Of a DNA stretch of 64,000 bases, positions 6,359-57,270 are shown in pieces. The stretch lies in the NCBI RefSeq assembly GCF_000282095.2, contig NZ_AKKC02000002.1:1-64000 (forward strand), given 5' to 3'. The notes under the pieces are model-generated. The model worked only from the letters and a program-made list of their open reading frames with translations. It was not told the origin of the DNA and ran no database searches. The stretch comes from Rhizobium sp. CF080. Its GTDB lineage: Bacteria; Pseudomonadota; Alphaproteobacteria; Rhizobiales; Rhizobiaceae. Position numbers and translations under genes: made by a program. Position 1 is the stretch's first letter; each line of letters begins with the position of its first letter.

Positions 6359-6622
6359 ATGACCCTGATATTTCCGAACAGAAGCCGCAGTTTCGACGAA
6401 ACGCGCAAGGTCGTTCGCTTCCTGGGTTATGACGGGATGTTCGAGGTCCGGTTTTTCGTGGAGGCCAAGGCACTCACCAACTCCACGGCGACGGGCATGT
6501 CGGAGGACGATTACCTCAGGGCTTTCGATGCGGCGCGATCCAGCATCCAGAATGCAGCAATCAAGGCATATCATCCCAATCGGGGCACCACCTATACGCT
6601 GACGGCCGCCGATCTCGGCTGA
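6359..6622 (+). CDS. DUF1488 family protein
   Basis: This 87-residue soluble protein has the DUF1488 pattern: N-terminal MTLIFPNRSRSFDETRKVVRF, central EVRFFVEAKAL, then YLRAFDAARSSIQNAA and a short C-terminal strand (TYTLTAADL). The family is widespread in proteobacteria with no known biochemical role. It appears monocistronic. Confidence 0.8.
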   Translation: MTLIFPNRSRSFDETRKVVRFLGYDGMFEVRFFVEAKALTNSTATGMSEDDYLRAFDAARSSIQNAAIKAYHPNRGTTYTLTAADLG

Positions 6623-7374: not shown

Positions 7375-8412
7375 ATGGCCAGAACGATGAAAGCCGCCGT
7401 GGTGCATCAATTCGGCAAACCGCTTGCGATCGAGTGTGTCCCGGTGCCTGTACCGGGGCCGGGTGAAATCCTGGTGAAGGTCATGGCCTGCGGCGTCTGC
7501 CACACCGACCTTCACGCCGCCGATGGCGACTGGCCCGTCAAACCGACACCGCCGTTCATTCCCGGACACGAGGCTGCCGGTATCATCGTCGAGCTTGGCC
7601 CCGGCGTGACGGGATTGAAGGAAGGCGATGCGGTGGGCGTCGCCTGGCTGCATGATGCATGCCTCGCTTGCGAATATTGCGAAACCGGATGGGAGACGCT
7701 TTGCGAGCATCAGCACAATACCGGCTATAGCTGCAACGGCGGCTTTGCCGAATATGTTATCGCTTCCGCCGCCTTTGCCGCGCGACTGCCGCAGAATGTC
7801 GACTTCGCGGCGATCTCGCCGATCCTCTGCGCCGGCGTGACCACCTACAAGGGGCTCAAGGAAACAGAGGCGAAGCCCGGCGAATGGGTGGCAATCTCCG
7901 GCATCGGCGGGCTTGGCCATGTGGCGATCCAATATGCCAAGGCAATGGGCTTCCATGTGGTGGCGCTCGACGTCAGCTCGGAAAAACTGGAGCTTGCCCG
8001 CAGCCTCGGCGCGGATCTCGCCGTCGATGCCCGGTCGCTCACCGCAGTCGAGGATACGCTGAAGGCAACGGCCGGCGGCGCGCATGGCGTGCTGGTCACC
8101 GCCGTTTCCCCGCCAGCTTTCTCCCAGGCGATCCGAATGGTCCGCCGCAAGGGCACGGTCAGCCTCGTCGGGCTGCCGCCGGGCGAGTTCCCGACGCCGA
8201 TTTTCGATGTCGTGCTCAAACGCATCACCGTTCGCGGCTCGATCGTCGGAACACGGCGCGATCTTGACGAAGCGATCGCGTTTGCCGCGGAAGGCAAGGT
8301 CAAGGCGGAAATCCACAAGGCGCCGCTCGAAGACATCAATGACATCTTCGCACACCTGAAGGACGGTAAGATCGACGGGCGCATGGTGCTGGATTTCTCG
8401 TCCGCATCCTGA
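7375..8412 (+). CDS. adhP: Zinc alcohol dehydrogenase (AdhP type)
   Basis: This 345-residue cytosolic medium-chain dehydrogenase interconverts primary alcohols and aldehydes with NAD(H). The catalytic zinc ligands are visible in [16 protein letters not shown] and PGHEAAG, the structural zinc site in [15 protein letters not shown], and the Rossmann motif in [17 protein letters not shown]. The start ATG has AAGGAGA 8 bases upstream. Together with the acetate kinase and phosphoketolase genes downstream it suggests fermentative or low-oxygen redox balancing. A strong hairpin separates it from the convergent gene at 8452. Confidence 0.92.
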
Positions 8413-51854: not shown

Positions 51855-53765
51855 ATGATCCATACGCCTGCAACCCGCATCTTTCCGTCTCTCTGGGCCG
51901 CCTATCGCCATCGCAGGCGCCTCGCCGTCTTCGTGATACCGTGGGTCGTCGGGCTCGGCCTCGGCGTGCCATTGCTTTGGCATCAGATCGTCGTGAATGC
52001 GCGGGAACCTCAGATCCGCAACAGGGAGGAGACCCTGTCGCAGGCCTATGACATTCTCAGCAGAACCTTGGACCGGCTCGGCCGCGACGCCCTGTTCCTT
52101 GCCGACCTGCAATCGCGTTTCGGCGATACGGAAACTCCGATCACTCCGTTGAGTGTCGAGATATTCCAGAGTTTCGCCTCGAGCTCGCCGGACTACGATC
52201 AGGTGCGGTGGCTGGATACTAGCGGCAATGAACGACTGCGCGTCAACCATCGGGGCGGCGGAGAACCGATCGTCGTTGCCGAGGATCAATTGCAGAACAA
52301 GGTGGACCGGCCTTACTTTCGCGACACGGCGGCGCTGCCGCTGCATGGCCTGTATTTCTCCACTCTCGATCTCAATGTCGAAAACGGCGTGGTCGAGGTG
52401 CCCCATCTGCCGACATTGCGTGTTGCAAGCCCTGTTTTCCGCAACGGGATCAAGCAGGGCATCATCGTCATCAACTATCGCGCCACACGTTTGCTCGAAC
52501 GCCTGAAGCGGCTCGACACGAGCGTAGACCTTTATCTGATGAACCAGGCCGGATACTGGATCCAGGGACCCAACCCAGAAGCGAACTGGGCCTGGCAGCT
52601 CGGGATTCCGACACCCGACGCGGCTCGAGCCGAGCTGTTGCGGGGAGTCAGCACCGGAAACAAGGGCCTTTTTCACACTGTCGGCGGAGATTGGAGCTAC
52701 CGTCGCTTCGACCCGGGTGCGGGCTTGCTGATAACTGGCGAGGTCGTGGAAATGCGTGCCCCGGATGCCGGTCTCTATCTGCTTGCCCGTGACGCGGCGG
52801 GGGCGATCAACAGCCAGGAAACAAGGGGAAAACTCATCCTCGGCATGGTGGCGGCCATTCTCGCCGTGGTGGCGCTCGCGGTAACGGGTCGCCTCGCCAA
52901 CAGCATGGAGGCCGAAGCGGAATGGGCACGGCAAATGGAGGACACGAACCAAACGCTGCGCGAGACGAATGAAAAACTGAGCGTAACTCAACGGGAACTG
53001 GCGCGGGCCGAACGGCTGTCGTCGCTGGGCCTCATGGTTGCCGGCGTCGCGCATGAGATGAACACGCCGCTTGGAAGCGCGGCACTCGTACTCAGCAAAG
53101 CCGCCAAGGATCTCAGGCTTTTCAAGGAAAGGATCGCCACGGGACTGCGCCGCTCCGATCTCGACCTTTATATCGCAGACAGCGATGTCAGCCTGGATAT
53201 GGTCCGCGACGCCATCCACCGATGTGCCGCGCTGGTTCAACGCTTCAAGCAGGTTGCGGTGGACCGAGCAACGTTGGAGCGGCGGGATATCGATCTCGCC
53301 TTGTTCATTCCCGATGCCGACCCGCGCCTGCGCAGATGGGACGCCAGCGCCGGGATCGGTTTGACGTTGAACGTCCCTCAGGACGTGGCGATAACCACCT
53401 ATCCGGGGCCTCTTGCCCAGGTCCTGTCGAACCTGCTCAACAATTCGCTGCTGCATGCCTTCGATGCGGGTAAACCCGGCATGATCACGATCAATGTCCG
53501 GAAACTGGCAGATCAGGTCCTCATCGAATTCACCGACGACGGCCGCGGGATCAACGATACGGACATTCAGAAGATATTCGAACCCTTCTTTTCCACTGCC
53601 CGTCACAGCGGCGGTACCGGGCTTGGGCTGCACATCGTCCACCAGATCGTGACCGAGGTTCTCGGCGGTTCGATCGCCGTCGAGAGCCCACCGGATGGCG
53701 AGGTCCGCGGCACCCGGTTCATCATCCGGCTTCCGAAAAGTGCTCCGGCACAGGCGGAAACCTAA
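51855..53765 (+). CDS. Membrane sensor histidine kinase paired with the EAL regulator
   Basis: This 636-residue kinase has two membrane spans (about residues 23-43 and 330-350) around a dCache-like periplasmic domain, a coiled-coil linker (QMEDTNQTLRETNEKLSVTQRELARAERLSSLG), and a kinase core with phospho-His400 in AHEMNTPLG, N-box NLLNNSLLHAF, DDGRG, FEPFF and GGTGLGL. HEMNTPL marks it as an HPK4-like kinase. It begins 6 bases after the EAL gene and should phosphorylate Asp108 there. The signal is unknown. Confidence 0.92.
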   Translation: MIHTPATRIFPSLWAAYRHRRRLAVFVIPWVVGLGLGVPLLWHQIVVNAREPQIRNREETLSQAYDILSRTLDRLGRDALFLADLQSRFGDTETPITPLSVEIFQSFASSSPDYDQVRWLDTSGNERLRVNHRGGGEPIVVAEDQLQNKVDRPYFRDTAALPLHGLYFSTLDLNVENGVVEVPHLPTLRVASPVFRNGIKQGIIVINYRATRLLERLKRLDTSVDLYLMNQAGYWIQGPNPEANWAWQLGIPTPDAARAELLRGVSTGNKGLFHTVGGDWSYRRFDPGAGLLITGEVVEMRAPDAGLYLLARDAAGAINSQETRGKLILGMVAAILAVVALAVTGRLANSMEAEAEWARQMEDTNQTLRETNEKLSVTQRELARAERLSSLGLMVAGVAHEMNTPLGSAALVLSKAAKDLRLFKERIATGLRRSDLDLYIADSDVSLDMVRDAIHRCAALVQRFKQVAVDRATLERRDIDLALFIPDADPRLRRWDASAGIGLTLNVPQDVAITTYPGPLAQVLSNLLNNSLLHAFDAGKPGMITINVRKLADQVLIEFTDDGRGINDTDIQKIFEPFFSTARHSGGTGLGLHIVHQIVTEVLGGSIAVESPPDGEVRGTRFIIRLPKSAPAQAET

Positions 53766-53773
53766 GCCCCGCT

Positions 53774-54550
53774 TCAGATCCCGGCATACCATTCATAGCC
53801 GCGATCCTCCCAGAAACCGCCGCTGCCGCCATAGAGGCGGCCAAGATCCGCCACCGCCTCGATACGGGTCAGGTATTTCGCCTGTTTGTAGCCGAGCTGC
53901 CGCTCGACGCGCAGCCGCAGCGGCGCGCCATGGGCGACTTCAAGGTCGCGGCCGTTCATGGTGTGAGCGAGGATGGTCTGTGGATGGAAGGCATCGACCA
54001 GGTCGATGCTCTCATAATACCAGCCGCTGCCGTCCAGCGTCTTTTCGTACTCGTCGGCGCAATGGAAGACGATGTAGCGCGCTTCCGGCTTCAGGCCGAC
54101 CGTCTTCAAAAGCGCACCCAGCGGCACGCCGGTCCATTTGCCGATGGCGCTCCAGCCCTCGACGCAATCGTGCCGGGTGATCTGGGAGCGGGCCGGCAAG
54201 GCCTTCAGTTCGGCGAGCGACAGCTGCATCGGCTTTTCGACCAGGCCGCCGACTTCGAGCTTCCAGGTGGAGAACTGCCGGTTCATCCAGTCGAGATATT
54301 GCGGATTGTCCGGCATGCTGGTGCCGTTGGCACGAAAGACCGGGGAGAGATCCGCCTCGGTGAACTCGCGCGCCAGCGCATCGTCGCCGAGCAGGAAACG
54401 CTGGGTCTTCATCGAAAACCCTTCCGCGATCTTGAGGACGGATTTCGTCCGGTCGCTTTCGACGAGCGCGTCGCAGCCGCTGAGGCCCAGCGCCGAGGCG
54501 GTCATGGTCGCGCCGATCAGGAAACGGCGCCGGGTGATGATGCGGCTCAT
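53774..54550 (-). CDS. Tat-exported molybdopterin oxidoreductase (YedY/sulfite oxidase fold)
   Basis: This 258-residue periplasmic enzyme has a twin-arginine leader (ITRRRFLIGATMTASALGLSG) ending at a possible lipobox Cys26, and an oxidoreductase Moco-binding domain with the molybdenum ligand Cys129 in RHDCVEGWSAIGKWTGVPLG. Such proteins reduce methionine sulfoxide or oxidise sulfite in the periplasm. It overlaps the cytochrome b gene by 4 bases and so receives or passes electrons through it. It resembles the YedY1-type partner of SigF/NrsF regulons rather than E. coli MsrP. Confidence 0.85.
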   Translation of the reverse strand: MSRIITRRRFLIGATMTASALGLSGCDALVESDRTKSVLKIAEGFSMKTQRFLLGDDALAREFTEADLSPVFRANGTSMPDNPQYLDWMNRQFSTWKLEVGGLVEKPMQLSLAELKALPARSQITRHDCVEGWSAIGKWTGVPLGALLKTVGLKPEARYIVFHCADEYEKTLDGSGWYYESIDLVDAFHPQTILAHTMNGRDLEVAHGAPLRLRVERQLGYKQAKYLTRIEAVADLGRLYGGSGGFWEDRGYEWYAGI

Positions 54551-55389
54551 TGTTTGTCTCCCTGTTCAATGGCGTAATAGCCGGTGATCATCGAACGCAG
54601 ATTGTTGAAGACGCCCGACAGGATCACCATCGCCACGTGGACCACCACGAAAGCGGTGAGGGAAAAGGCCGTCAGGAAATGGATCGTGCGGGCAGATTGC
54701 CGGCCGCCGAACACGTCGAGCAGCCAGGGCGCAACCGCGTTGAAGCCGGGCGACATGGTGAGGCCCGTCAAGACCATCAGCGGCAGGAGCAGGAAGATCA
54801 CCGCGACATAGGTGAGCTTCTGCAGCGTGTTGTAGTGCCGCGCCTCCGGCCCTTTCGGAAACCGCAGCCGGGCGTGATTGACGATCTCGTGGCCGATATG
54901 GGCGGGGGTCAATTCATTTCCGGCGGGCAGCAGATCGCGGCGGAAATGCCGGCTCAACAGCCCGTAGAGGAGGTAGGCGAAGCCGTTGATGACAAACAGC
55001 CAGGCAAAGAAGAAATGCCAGCGCCGACCGCTCGCGAGATCCTGATAGCTTGGCATCGTCAGCCAGTCGGGGAAGCCCCGTGCGGTAGCCTCGCCGTCCA
55101 CTTCGGAGAGACCGAGAAATCCGGTCGTATTGAAAGTCAGCGAACCGACATGCGTTAGGCCCTTGGCCCTGTCACCCTCTTCGACCGCCTCCATGGAGAT
55201 GAAGGAGGGATCGTTGTCGGCGCCATACTGCCCCCAATAGAGCGCTGGATGGGCATTGAAGATCTGCAGGCCGCTGAACAGCAGCACGGTCATGCAGAGT
55301 ACATTCACCCAGTGCGACAGGCGCACCAGCAGGCTGTGGCGGTAGATGACCGTCCGGCCGGTCGCAGCGCCGGCATCGATGGTGGCCAT
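54547..55389 (-). CDS. Cytochrome b561-type membrane partner of the Moco enzyme
   Basis: This 280-residue protein has four to five spans with heme-ligand histidines in YRHSLLVRLSHWVNVLCM, RRWHFFFAWLFVINGF and ARTIHFLTAFSLTAFVVVHVAMVIL. It belongs to the b-type cytochromes of hydrogenase or thiosulfate-reductase type (YedZ1-like). ATG 55389 has GGAGGAAACACC directly upstream. It would link the quinone pool to the periplasmic Moco enzyme, whose gene overlaps its stop (ATGA). Confidence 0.85.
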   Translation of the reverse strand: MATIDAGAATGRTVIYRHSLLVRLSHWVNVLCMTVLLFSGLQIFNAHPALYWGQYGADNDPSFISMEAVEEGDRAKGLTHVGSLTFNTTGFLGLSEVDGEATARGFPDWLTMPSYQDLASGRRWHFFFAWLFVINGFAYLLYGLLSRHFRRDLLPAGNELTPAHIGHEIVNHARLRFPKGPEARHYNTLQKLTYVAVIFLLLPLMVLTGLTMSPGFNAVAPWLLDVFGGRQSARTIHFLTAFSLTAFVVVHVAMVILSGVFNNLRSMITGYYAIEQGDKQ

Positions 55390-55477
55390 GGTGTTTCCTC
55401 CGAATGCGGGAAGTGGGCTTCGGCAATGAGACGCGGCCGCGATACAAAAAGTTTCAGCGGCCGCGGATTTCATGGGA

Positions 55478-55741
55478 TCACTTCATCGCGTCGCAGGCCT
55501 TCATCATGTCGGACTTCTTCATCGCATCCTTTTCCATGCCGGCGTTGTGCATGCAGTCGGTCTTGGTGCTGCCCGTCGCCATCGAGTCCTTCTTCATCGC
55601 GTCCGGCTTCATGGCGTCGGTCTTCATGCTGTCCTTCTTCATCGCGTCGGAACTCATGCTGCTCTGAGCGCTCGCCACACCGGCAAGCGAAAGGCCGACA
55701 AGGAAGGTGCAGGCTGCGAGGCAGGAAAGAAGCTTGGTCAT
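55478..55741 (-). CDS. Exported Met-rich MxKDx repeat peptide
   Basis: This 87-residue protein has a signal peptide (MTKLLSCLAACTFLVGLSLA, cut after ASA) and a mature part of about 61 residues made of pentapeptides such as MKKDS, MKTDA, MKPDA, MEKDA, with 12 methionines (about 20 percent) and two cysteines. This is the MxKDx pentapeptide family. AGGAGG precedes the ATG. It lies 88 bases upstream of the cytochrome b gene on the same strand, under a SigF-like promoter. A Met-rich periplasmic peptide like MrpX can serve as a sacrificial target for hypochlorous acid, later reduced by a Met-sulfoxide reductase. Confidence 0.9.
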   Translation of the reverse strand: MTKLLSCLAACTFLVGLSLAGVASAQSSMSSDAMKKDSMKTDAMKPDAMKKDSMATGSTKTDCMHNAGMEKDAMKKSDMMKACDAMK

Positions 55742-55804
55742 GGGATGTCCTCCTGGGATCAATCAATGTGTCCGCCGGCCGCCTGCCGAAGGCTCACAAC
55801 CATC

Positions 55805-55832
55805 CATTCGATCCCCGCAGAAAGTCGTTACA
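55805..55832 (-). promoter_or_regulatory. SigF-type promoter of the MxKDx operon
   Basis: On the minus strand, TGTAACG (55832-55826), 15 bases, then CGAATG (55810-55805). The same pattern with the same spacing reads on the plus strand at 55886-55913 ahead of the sigma gene. Confidence 0.7.
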
Positions 55833-55885
55833 GCTTCACGGCGATGTGATAGGCCTGAGGCATCCGGAGAATTTTCCATTCCGCC

Positions 55886-55913
55886 TGTAACCGTTTACGT
55901 GCCTTTCCGAATG
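55886..55913 (+). promoter_or_regulatory. SigF-type promoter of the sigma factor gene
   Basis: TGTAACC (55886-55892), 15 bases, CGAATG (55908-55913). The match to the divergent promoter suggests the ECF factor activates its own gene. The ATG is only 15 bases after the -10 element, so the transcript would have a leader of about 8 bases. Confidence 0.7.
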
Positions 55914-55927
55914 ATCATTGAAACAGC

Positions 55928-56476
55928 ATGATGAGCGCCCATTCGGAAGAAGCCCTGAAGGCCCTGATGCTTCTCTCCCTTGACGGGGACGAGGCAGCCT
56001 ATCGGCGTTTGCTCAACGCGGTGCGCGTCCTGCTGATCGGATATTACAGCCGCCGAATGGCTGCTGCGACGAAGGCGGACATGGAAGACCTTGTCCAGGA
56101 GACATTGCTGGCGCTGCATTCCCGCCGGGGGACCTACGATCGTGAGCGGCCGTTCACGGCGTGGTTCTTCTCGATCGCCCGCTACAAGCTGATCGACCAC
56201 CATCGCGGCCGCGGCGGCCGCATTATGGCAGAGACGGAGCTCGGCGAGGATGTCGAGAGCGATTACAACGAGGAGGCCTTGACCGCTCGAATGGATGTCG
56301 AGCGACTTCTGGAAGGCCTGCCGGAGAAACAGCGGGAATTGATCCGCCAGGTGAAGATCGAGGGTCAGTCGGTGGCAGACACCGCAAGCCGTATCGGCCA
56401 GTCGGAATCAGCGGTCAAGGTCGGCATTCATAGAGGTCTCAAGGCGCTGGCGGAGAAATTGCGAGGCGGAAAGTGA
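55928..56476 (+). CDS. ECF sigma factor (SigF type, NrsF-controlled)
   Basis: This 182-residue sigma-70 ECF factor has region 2 (DMEDLVQETLLALHSRRGTYDRERPFTAWFFSIARYKLIDHHR) and region 4 (VERLLEGLPEKQRELIRQVKIEGQSVADTASRIGQSESAVKVGIHRGLKALA). Start is ATG 55928 or 55931; there is no clear ribosome site. The gene overlaps the NrsF gene by 4 bases (GTGA), and DUF1109/NrsF proteins are anti-sigma factors of the SigF group, which answer to oxidants, sulfite, chlorine species or metals. In S. meliloti the RpoE1/RpoE4 equivalents respond to sulfite. Confidence 0.92.
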   Translation: MMSAHSEEALKALMLLSLDGDEAAYRRLLNAVRVLLIGYYSRRMAAATKADMEDLVQETLLALHSRRGTYDRERPFTAWFFSIARYKLIDHHRGRGGRIMAETELGEDVESDYNEEALTARMDVERLLEGLPEKQRELIRQVKIEGQSVADTASRIGQSESAVKVGIHRGLKALAEKLRGGK

Positions 56477-57117
56477 GAAAGACGGACAACATCATCGACA
56501 GCCTGGTGGGCGATCTGAAGCCGGTGCCGCGACACGCGCTGGAGAGGCGGTTCGCGATCGGCATCCTGCCGGCGCTCGCCGTGTCGCTGGTGCTGATGCT
56601 CGCGATCCTCGGCCTGCGCATCGACATGGCTGAAGCGCTGATGCTGCCGGCGTTCTGGATCAAGTCCGCCTACAATGCCCTTCTGGCGATCGCCGCTTTC
56701 CTAGCCGCCTATCATCTGGCCCGGCCCGACGGCTCCCAAGGACGGTTCTTCCAGATTGCGGCAGCCATCGTCGTGACGATGGCGGTGGTCGCGGTGATCC
56801 AGTTGATAATGTCACCTGTCGATACCTACCCCAAGATGATCCTCGGATCTTCGGCGCTGCATTGCCCGCTGCTGATCTTCCTCTTCGCGCTTCCGGTATT
56901 TGCTGGAAATATCTGGGTGCTTAGACGCGGCGCGCCGACGGAGCTGAGGCTTACCGGCTTTATCGCCGGCATCGCGGCAGGTGCTGCCGGCGCCTGGGTC
57001 TATTCCTGGTTCTGCACCGAGAACGGCATGCCCTTCGTGCTCATCTGGTATTCGCTCGGCATCCTGCTGACGGGCATTCTCGGCTCGCTCATGGGGCCGC
57101 GCCTGCTGCGCTGGTGA
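56473..57117 (+). CDS. nrsF: NrsF-type (DUF1109) membrane anti-sigma factor
   Basis: This 214-residue inner-membrane protein has six hydrophobic spans after a short cytosolic N-terminus (MRKTDNIIDSLVGDLKPVPRHALERRFAIG). It starts at GTG 56473 inside the sigma gene stop. Cysteines occur in SALHCPLLIF and YSWFCTENGMPF; paired cysteines in NrsF proteins are thought to sense the inducing stress. It should hold the ECF factor inactive until stress. Confidence 0.88.
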   Translation: MRKTDNIIDSLVGDLKPVPRHALERRFAIGILPALAVSLVLMLAILGLRIDMAEALMLPAFWIKSAYNALLAIAAFLAAYHLARPDGSQGRFFQIAAAIVVTMAVVAVIQLIMSPVDTYPKMILGSSALHCPLLIFLFALPVFAGNIWVLRRGAPTELRLTGFIAGIAAGAAGAWVYSWFCTENGMPFVLIWYSLGILLTGILGSLMGPRLLRW

Positions 57118-57193: not shown

Positions 57194-57270
57194 TGGTACG
57201 GTTGGGGGGTCTCGAACCTCCGACCTCAGGTGCCACAAACCTGCGCTCTAACCAACTGAGCTACAACCGC
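57194..57270 (-). tRNA. tRNA-His (GTG)
   Basis: A 77-base cloverleaf with encoded CCA. Acceptor GCGGTTG pairs with CAACCGT (one G-U), D arm GCTCAGTTGGTTAGAGC, anticodon stem CAGGT/ACCTG enclosing TTGTGGC (anticodon GTG, His), T arm GGAGGTTCGAGACCCCC. The base 5' of position 1 is T, not G, and the discriminator is A, so the usual G-1:C73 pair is absent, as in a clade of alphaproteobacteria. Confidence 0.95.

Follow-up and report, generated by a model that had tools for sequence, protein, structure and literature searches.

In the present study, a five-gene unit was characterised at positions 53,774 to 57,117 of a 64,000-nucleotide stretch of Rhizobium sp. CF080 (contig NZ_AKKC02000002.1, positions 1 to 64,000 of the forward strand; hereafter the window). 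The unit combines a molybdenum cofactor (Moco) enzyme, a b-type cytochrome, a methionine-rich peptide of the MxKDx family, an extracytoplasmic function (ECF) sigma factor and an NrsF-type anti-sigma factor. Judged from sequence, it is a rhizobial relative, and probably an ortholog, of the SigF/NrsF-MrpX-YedYZ (bcrXQP/bcrS-abcS) unit, and it belongs to a known kind because the same genes and promoter type have been published in Brucella melitensis, with Azospira as the prototype. The five genes claimed in an earlier note on this DNA were all present as open reading frames where that note had placed them, and the family matches of all five were far above chance.

Gene content and promoters

The order on the reverse strand is MxKDx peptide, cytochrome and enzyme. 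The peptide gene (55478..55741) encodes 87 residues of the BcrX/MrpX type with a signal-like start and a C-terminal two-cysteine block, and scored 68.8 bits with TIGR02953 (cut-off 41). The methionine content of about 20 percent that had been claimed for it was reproduced (12 methionines in 62 residues), the signal being assumed, without a signal predictor, to be cut after ASA, and eight of the 11 gaps between successive methionines are five residues. The cytochrome gene (54547..55389) encodes a di-heme-type, formate-dehydrogenase-gamma-like cytochrome b of the BcrQ type (PF01292, E 1.5e-26; also DUF4405); the start at 55389 was used, the longest open reading frame begins at 55473, and either start is possible. 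The cytochrome gene overlaps by four bases the gene of the YedY-like molybdopterin enzyme (53774..54550; 258 residues, BcrP/YedY1-type, PF00174, E 3.6e-37), which carries a twin-arginine translocation (Tat) signal, a lipobox-like LSGCD stretch and the molybdenum ligand Cys129 in HDCVEGWS. On the forward strand, the gene of the ECF sigma factor (55928..56476; 182 residues, Sigma70_r2 and Sigma70_r4) likewise overlaps by four bases that of the NrsF/DUF1109 anti-sigma factor (56473..57117; GTG start, PF06532, E 6.1e-70).

Both operons are preceded by the same type of promoter. The earlier note had described identical TGTAAC and CGAATG elements with a 15-base spacer on the two divergent promoters; the elements are indeed identical, but the spacer is 16 bases long (28-base matches) and its letters differ between the sites. 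One site precedes the peptide-cytochrome-enzyme operon (55805..55832, reverse strand; -35 box starting 91 bases before the peptide ATG), and the other precedes the sigma-antisigma operon (55886..55913, forward strand; -35 box starting 42 bases before the sigma ATG). By chance, TGTAAC-N13-17-CGAATG occurred at a mean of 0.02 per shuffled window, with two sites in 0 of 100 shuffles. Among 20,000 Markov-1 sequences as long as the intergenic region (186 bases), none had TGTAAC-N15-17-CGAA on both strands. Across the 7.05 Mb genome, TGTAAC-N16-CGAA occurred exactly twice, both times at this locus, compared with 18 occurrences of the reversed pattern, whereas the looser YGTAAC-N15-17-CGAA was uninformative because its 52 genome sites compare with 115 for the reversed control. 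A wider regulon in this genome was considered and rejected, the N16 pattern being confined to the two local sites. Both promoters fit the ECF16 consensus sequences (T/C)GTAAC-N17-CGAA (PMC8315932, partial text) and tGTAACc-N16-CGAA (PMC3420878). The sigma factor is putatively of the ECF16 type, an assignment made because of its NrsF partner and promoter type rather than by a classifier. The -10 box stands just 14 bases from the sigma ATG used (55908-55928). At this distance, either the sigma transcript would have almost no leader or the start codon would lie further in, as has been argued likewise for Bradyrhizobium EcfF.

Cys131 and Cys181 of NrsF were invariant in 20 of 20 aligned rows. In Caulobacter NrsF, C131 and C181, at the same positions, have been mutated and are required to hold the regulon at its basal level. 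In OsrA, where two cysteines match the NrsF pair, C179 is required for the response to hydrogen peroxide (H2O2) and C129 for holding the sigma factor.

Identity of the enzyme and the cytochrome

The best curated model for the enzyme was MsrP, yet at 100.2 bits the enzyme fell short of its cut-off (207); the cytochrome matched neither the MsrQ model nor PF01794 in the curated-model and Pfam searches. The sole PDB profile match of the cytochrome was FdnI, the formate dehydrogenase cytochrome (1kqf_C, E 0.002). A Foldseek search with the enzyme model returned E. coli MsrP as the best match (1xdy/1xdq, E 2.7e-13), followed by SorA and SorT; only the fold class was taken from this model because its confidence was moderate (mean predicted local distance difference test score, pLDDT, 75.6). 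By the curated sequence models, the pair is a shorter YedY-like enzyme with a formate-dehydrogenase-type cytochrome and not a canonical MsrPQ. A Tat-exported Moco enzyme, the sulfite oxidase fold, the Cys-Val-Glu molybdenum site and a membrane heme protein are shared with E. coli MsrPQ; the differences are the shorter enzyme, its lipobox-like signal and a cytochrome of another family.

The relatives compared here are the best 80 of at least 592 confirmed stretches, and the counts describe close relatives only. Residues C129, V130, E131 and N75 of the enzyme were identical in 81 of 81 rows (the window and the 80 relatives), as was the twin arginine, and a lipobox-like stretch was present in 76 of the 81, such that the enzyme is probably lipid-anchored at the outer face of the inner membrane. 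For the cytochrome, H26, H125, H172, H237 and H251 were kept in 73 of 73 rows (the window and 72 of the 80 loci); the script did not recover the cytochrome reading frame in the other eight, though tblastn matched a cytochrome in all 80.

The window pair fits the description of the YedY-like group 1B and of nSor, with a molybdenum protein of about 30 kDa (258 residues) and a PF01292 partner. Likened by description in the available parts of PMC7759655 and PMC10715153, these systems share with it a smaller molybdenum domain and a non-MsrQ cytochrome. The partial text of PMC7759655 describes group 1B enzymes as smaller and associated with another cytochrome, and group 1 as likely consisting of reductases throughout; in that of PMC10715153, one such pair, nSor of Acidocella, is proposed to reduce quinone. 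For the pair in the window, the context favours the reductase direction.

Contig C2 of this genome carries a separate MsrP/MsrQ locus, with scores of 315.3 (cut-off 207) and 157.8 (cut-off 130). This msrP is interrupted near its 3' end in the present assembly, with the last ~85 codons in another frame (L056, about 6390-6417), and the break could be real or an assembly or sequencing error. Contig C9 encodes a third PF00174 protein (L055:5938-6732) with a Cys-Val-Thr molybdenum site, unlike MsrP and the window enzyme, and without a signal peptide evident by eye.

Co-occurrence and gene neighbourhoods

The survey covered 297 genomes of the family, with a pair threshold of E <= 1e-60, weak TIGR02953 matches included and relatedness uncorrected. 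A peptide match was found in 43 genomes, the pair in 86, NrsF in 111 and all three in 26. The pair was present in 28 of the 43 peptide genomes compared with 58 of 254 others (Fisher p 9e-8), and NrsF in 35 of 43 compared with 76 of 254 (p 2e-10). Among the 20 genomes over the TIGR02953 cut-off, 16 had the pair and 17 NrsF; when the pair was counted at >=63% identity (16 genomes), the peptide accompanied it in 15 and NrsF in 15. Around the survey peptide matches, the pair was found in 19 of 38 loci taken from other genomes; in two of the 19 (L054 and L057) the peptide call is doubtful. Peptide and pair co-occur yet are separable. Within the genus, a pair-type match with E below 1e-60 was found in 30 of 57 genomes, and because of this the unit is regarded as an accessory trait.

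Among the best 80 relatives, the closest named enzymes belong to three Neorhizobium loci (95-97% identity over 258 residues), with a fourth Neorhizobium locus at 78%. Start codons of the relatives were picked by closeness to the window starts and, for that reason, are no test of the latter. In all 80 loci, tblastn placed the cytochrome upstream of the enzyme and on its strand, and the neighbours of this constant pair vary. A Met-rich, mostly MxKDx peptide lies upstream in 26 loci, an unnamed exported protein of about 205 residues lies beside the pair in 30 (three loci have both), a second Met-rich peptide lies downstream of the enzyme in five, and none of these three neighbours was found in 22. 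The 26 upstream peptides were called by Met-richness; those of L150 and L151 showed no similarity to the window peptide, and that of L150 gave no TIGR02953 match. Sigma and NrsF genes are nearby in 29 of the 80 loci. Of these 29, 21 have a TGTAAC-N15-17-CGAA site ahead of the pair operon, compared with 3 of the 51 others (Fisher p 6e-10, relatedness uncorrected). In the three exceptions (L165, L170 and L172), the site lies <=150 bases before the cytochrome match, suggesting that the pair is controlled there by a sigma factor encoded elsewhere. Four Rhizobium loci (L133, L134, L141 and L159) have sigma/NrsF and, where the peptide would stand, the unnamed protein; TIGR02953 matched in none of their four genomes, compared with two matches among all 10 genomes searched.

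In the members tested, neither Pfam (above its cut-off) nor NCBIfam gave a match to the unnamed protein (for example L113:4416-5042). W120 and M128 were invariant and a C-terminal methionine near-invariant in 19 rows. Its model is beta-rich (mean pLDDT 78.3), and no significant fold match was found in the PDB (best E 0.046); CusF was among the weak matches, which were not used.

MsrA or MsrB homologs occur in 3 of the 80 loci (L101, L127 and L154) and 2 of the 38 survey loci, as raw counts without a background rate. One case is Kaistia dalseonensis, where MsrA-like and MsrB-like genes with signal-like starts (L127:6775-7623 and 7685-8185) stand beside the peptide-cytochrome-enzyme unit. In another genome of the same genus (L197:4210-5441), the sigma/NrsF operon and its promoter are kept and the peptide, cytochrome and enzyme are missing, leaving sigma/NrsF as an orphan regulator. 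The five-gene unit of the window is bordered by a convergent histidine kinase gene (51855-53765) and, directly after the NrsF gene, by tRNA-His (57194-57270). A tRNA-His near the NrsF gene was also seen in Neorhizobium loci L097, L098 and L167; scans of three further loci (L102, L105 and L109) gave none. Locus L102 is that of Rhizobium johnstonii 3841, a non-pathogenic root-nodule bacterium with the same unit.

Composition of the peptides

A set of 45 peptides was compiled from the window, 20 survey peptides and 24 peptides of the named loci, with starts and cleavage sites guessed by script. L051, L054, L057, L150, L151 and L133 were left out; L051 yielded only a fragment, and the matches of L054 and L057, on the strand opposite to the pair, were judged to be artefacts, though they are still counted among the 43 peptide genomes. 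Of the 45, 43 are distinct, because L048 and L122 come from one genome and L126 and L130 have identical last 45 residues. Exactly two cysteines were found in 36 peptides and none in the other nine, and histidine is absent from seven. Met-richness is common to the peptides; the Met percentage of those from named loci is biased because they were chosen by Met-richness, whereas the cysteine pattern was no selection criterion. In addition, 30 of the 45 carry the block C-M-H-K-A-G-M-E-K-D-x-M-K-K-x-x-M-M-K-x-C-D. The selecting pattern fixed both cysteines, Ala5, Met7 and Glu8, and Met17, Lys19 and Asp22 were kept in 30 of 30 blocks though it did not fix them. This two-cysteine block may bind a metal, offer oxidants a second reactive site or hold a disulfide.

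The second Met-rich peptide has a signal-like start and is encoded directly after the enzyme gene (L121:6820-7080, and L125, L128, L131 and L136). It contains 18-20 methionines in 86-90 residues and two or three cysteines. TIGR02953 did not match the peptide of L121; in L072, a weak TIGR02953 match overlaps a match to the second Met-rich peptide. A distant kinship of the two peptides is possible from these matches.

Discussion

Four observations are new in the present study. First, the enzyme and cytochrome form a pair other than MsrPQ. Second, this pair is constant while its neighbours vary. Third, peptide and pair co-occur and can nevertheless be separated. Fourth, many of the peptides share a two-cysteine block.

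The closest published system is that of Brucella melitensis M28, where the partial text of PMC8315932 describes an MXKDX peptide, Q and P genes, an ECF16 sigma factor and a DUF1109 anti-sigma factor, with promoters deduced after rapid amplification of 5' cDNA ends. It was the only paper found when the literature was searched for MXKDX together with ECF16. According to the same partial text, hypochlorous acid (HOCl) induces bcrXQP, expression falls more than 16-fold without the sigma factor BcrS, and HOCl survival is reduced in the triple mutant (1.5 h) and the sigma mutant (4.5 h); recycling of the peptide is presented as a proposal. Likened without direct protein comparison, the two loci share the gene set, the divergent sigma/DUF1109 genes, the TGTAAC/CGAA promoters and two anti-sigma cysteines (C129 and C179 in Brucella, C131 and C181 in the window). 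They differ in the promoter spacer (17 by a count of the two printed promoters, compared with 16), and a T4SS link belongs to the account of the Brucella unit. Moreover, the available text calls the Brucella Q and P proteins MsrQP homologs, whereas the window cytochrome belongs to PF01292 and not to PF01794. The statement in the partial text of PMC10151825 that AbcS is cleaved under HOCl, which was not confirmed in the available part of PMC8315932, was not used here. The prototype of Azospira suillum (Melnyk 2015, as cited by others) also has sigma and anti-sigma factors, a Met-rich peptide, a YedYZ-type pair and a methionine cycle against hypochlorite, but there the oxidant arises from (per)chlorate respiration. 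The suggestion of the earlier note that the locus is a rhizobial SigF/NrsF version of a chlorine- and methionine-cycling unit stands by homology; the sulfite analogy attached to it does not. That note named Azospira and did not mention the tests of this arrangement in Brucella. As a source of HOCl or chloramines, the plant oxidative burst that it put forward found no support in the literature covered, and the Brucella and Bradyrhizobium relatives respond to different oxidants.

Herein, we propose a mechanism that starts from the observed gene content and order, promoters, families, conserved residues and co-occurrence. At rest, NrsF would keep the ECF16-type sigma factor at the inner membrane. 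A periplasmic oxidant such as HOCl or an N-chloramine would strike the two conserved cysteines of NrsF or act on NrsF through them, and the freed sigma factor would activate both its own and the divergent promoter. Once exported, the MxKDx peptide would then absorb the oxidant, its methionines becoming methionine sulfoxide and other proteins being spared, and the YedY-like enzyme would re-reduce the peptide with electrons passed from quinol through the di-heme cytochrome. As a whole, this scheme of an NrsF-sensed oxidant, an ECF16-type sigma output, a Met-rich peptide sink and a quinol-fed pair recharging the peptide is likely to be the best explanation of the locus. Its parts differ in strength. 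The gene content and the logic of regulation are well supported. By analogy with the Azospira and Brucella work, the locus would be induced by HOCl and would contribute to resistance. The reducing direction of the pair, like its action on this peptide, is our own inference.

Several results weigh against this scheme. Besides the sub-threshold MsrP score and the lack of MsrQ and PF01794 matches given above, a pair-type enzyme at E 1e-60 is missing from 15 of the 43 peptide genomes and from 4 of the 20 over the TIGR02953 cut-off, and four genomes have the peptide and sigma factor with no adjacent pair, three of them without a pair-type enzyme and one having it elsewhere. No Met-rich peptide lies upstream of the pair in 54 of the 80 loci. 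Related ECF16 systems answer to other signals: Caulobacter SigF/NrsF responds to dichromate and cadmium, and Bradyrhizobium EcfF/OsrA to H2O2 and singlet oxygen. The ECF16 factor of S. meliloti, RpoE7, is reported to have other targets and to be unresponsive to H2O2, cadmium and chromium as tested. In Brucella itself (PMC8315932, partial text), the sigma mutant behaved like the wild type at 1.5 h of HOCl and fell behind it only at 4.5 h, and bcrXQP was not required in mice.

The separability of peptide and pair might also mean that they are independent outputs of one stress sigma factor, the peptide being a one-way sink and the pair repairing envelope proteins generally. Loci L039, L067 and L076, with the peptide and sigma/NrsF and no adjacent pair, would fit this arrangement, as would L133, L134, L141 and L159, with sigma/NrsF and the pair in genomes without a TIGR02953 match. 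However, the strong co-occurrence in the survey and the adjacency in 19 of the 38 survey loci (two with doubtful peptide calls) and 26 of the 80 named loci argue against it, and we consider independent outputs unlikely, although they deserve more weight than the explanations that follow.

The cysteines of the peptide raise the question of soft-metal defence, in which the Met/Cys/His peptide would bind Cu(I) or a similar ion and NrsF would sense thiol-reactive metals as in Caulobacter SigF. The dichromate and cadmium response of that system, the exact pair of cysteines in 36 of the 45 peptides and a multicopper-oxidase-like gene downstream in one relative (L128) are consistent with such a role. 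Against them stand the nine peptides without cysteine and the seven without histidine, while Met-richness, in part a selection criterion, is what the peptides share; the constant partner is a redox pair and no metal pump, and the direct Brucella data (PMC8315932, partial text) indicate HOCl. Metal defence is accordingly judged improbable.

Still less probable is a reversed pair, in which the enzyme would oxidise sulfite or another small sulfur compound and the cytochrome would feed quinone, as proposed for nSor of Acidocella. The PF01292 cytochrome with FdnI as its sole PDB profile match would suit this direction, and the available part of PMC10715153 argues for a quinone-reductase role of a YedYZ-like pair with such a cytochrome; the 54 pair loci without an upstream peptide are also compatible with it. 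However, the scores of the enzyme against SorT and SorA lie far under the cut-offs, and repair agrees better with the setting among ECF16 and MxKDx genes and with the HOCl phenotype in Brucella.

A main role in sensing and oxidising sulfite was rejected on the grounds of the sigma group, the promoter and the SorT score. The earlier note had drawn an analogy with S. meliloti RpoE1 and RpoE4, which belong to ECF26, RpoE4 driving sorT-sorU-azu2 from a GGAAT/CGTC promoter. That system resembles the window in having an ECF sigma factor adjoining a sulfite-oxidase-family enzyme, but SorT there works with a cytochrome c and pseudoazurin, whereas the window has other neighbours, NrsF and TGTAAC/CGAA promoters, and an enzyme scoring 48.2 bits against a SorT cut-off of 570.

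Beyond the proposed oxidant-driven peptide cycle, the varying neighbourhoods allow a wider, tentative view. The pair might be a general quinol-fed periplasmic reductase with at least three exported clients, namely the MxKDx peptide, the second Met-rich peptide and the beta protein of about 205 residues, and the ECF16 sigma factor, where present, would pick the client-reductase set that is fired. We regard this only as a possibility, clearly less likely than its contrary. If true, the unnamed beta protein with its invariant Met128 would be a new oxidant buffer or redox client. To label the pair MsrPQ is to overlook that its enzyme and cytochrome belong to another family and that its neighbours, an unnamed family of exported proteins among them, can be exchanged. 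With the locus described here, a system tested in a pathogen and in a perchlorate reducer now extends to root-nodule bacteria.

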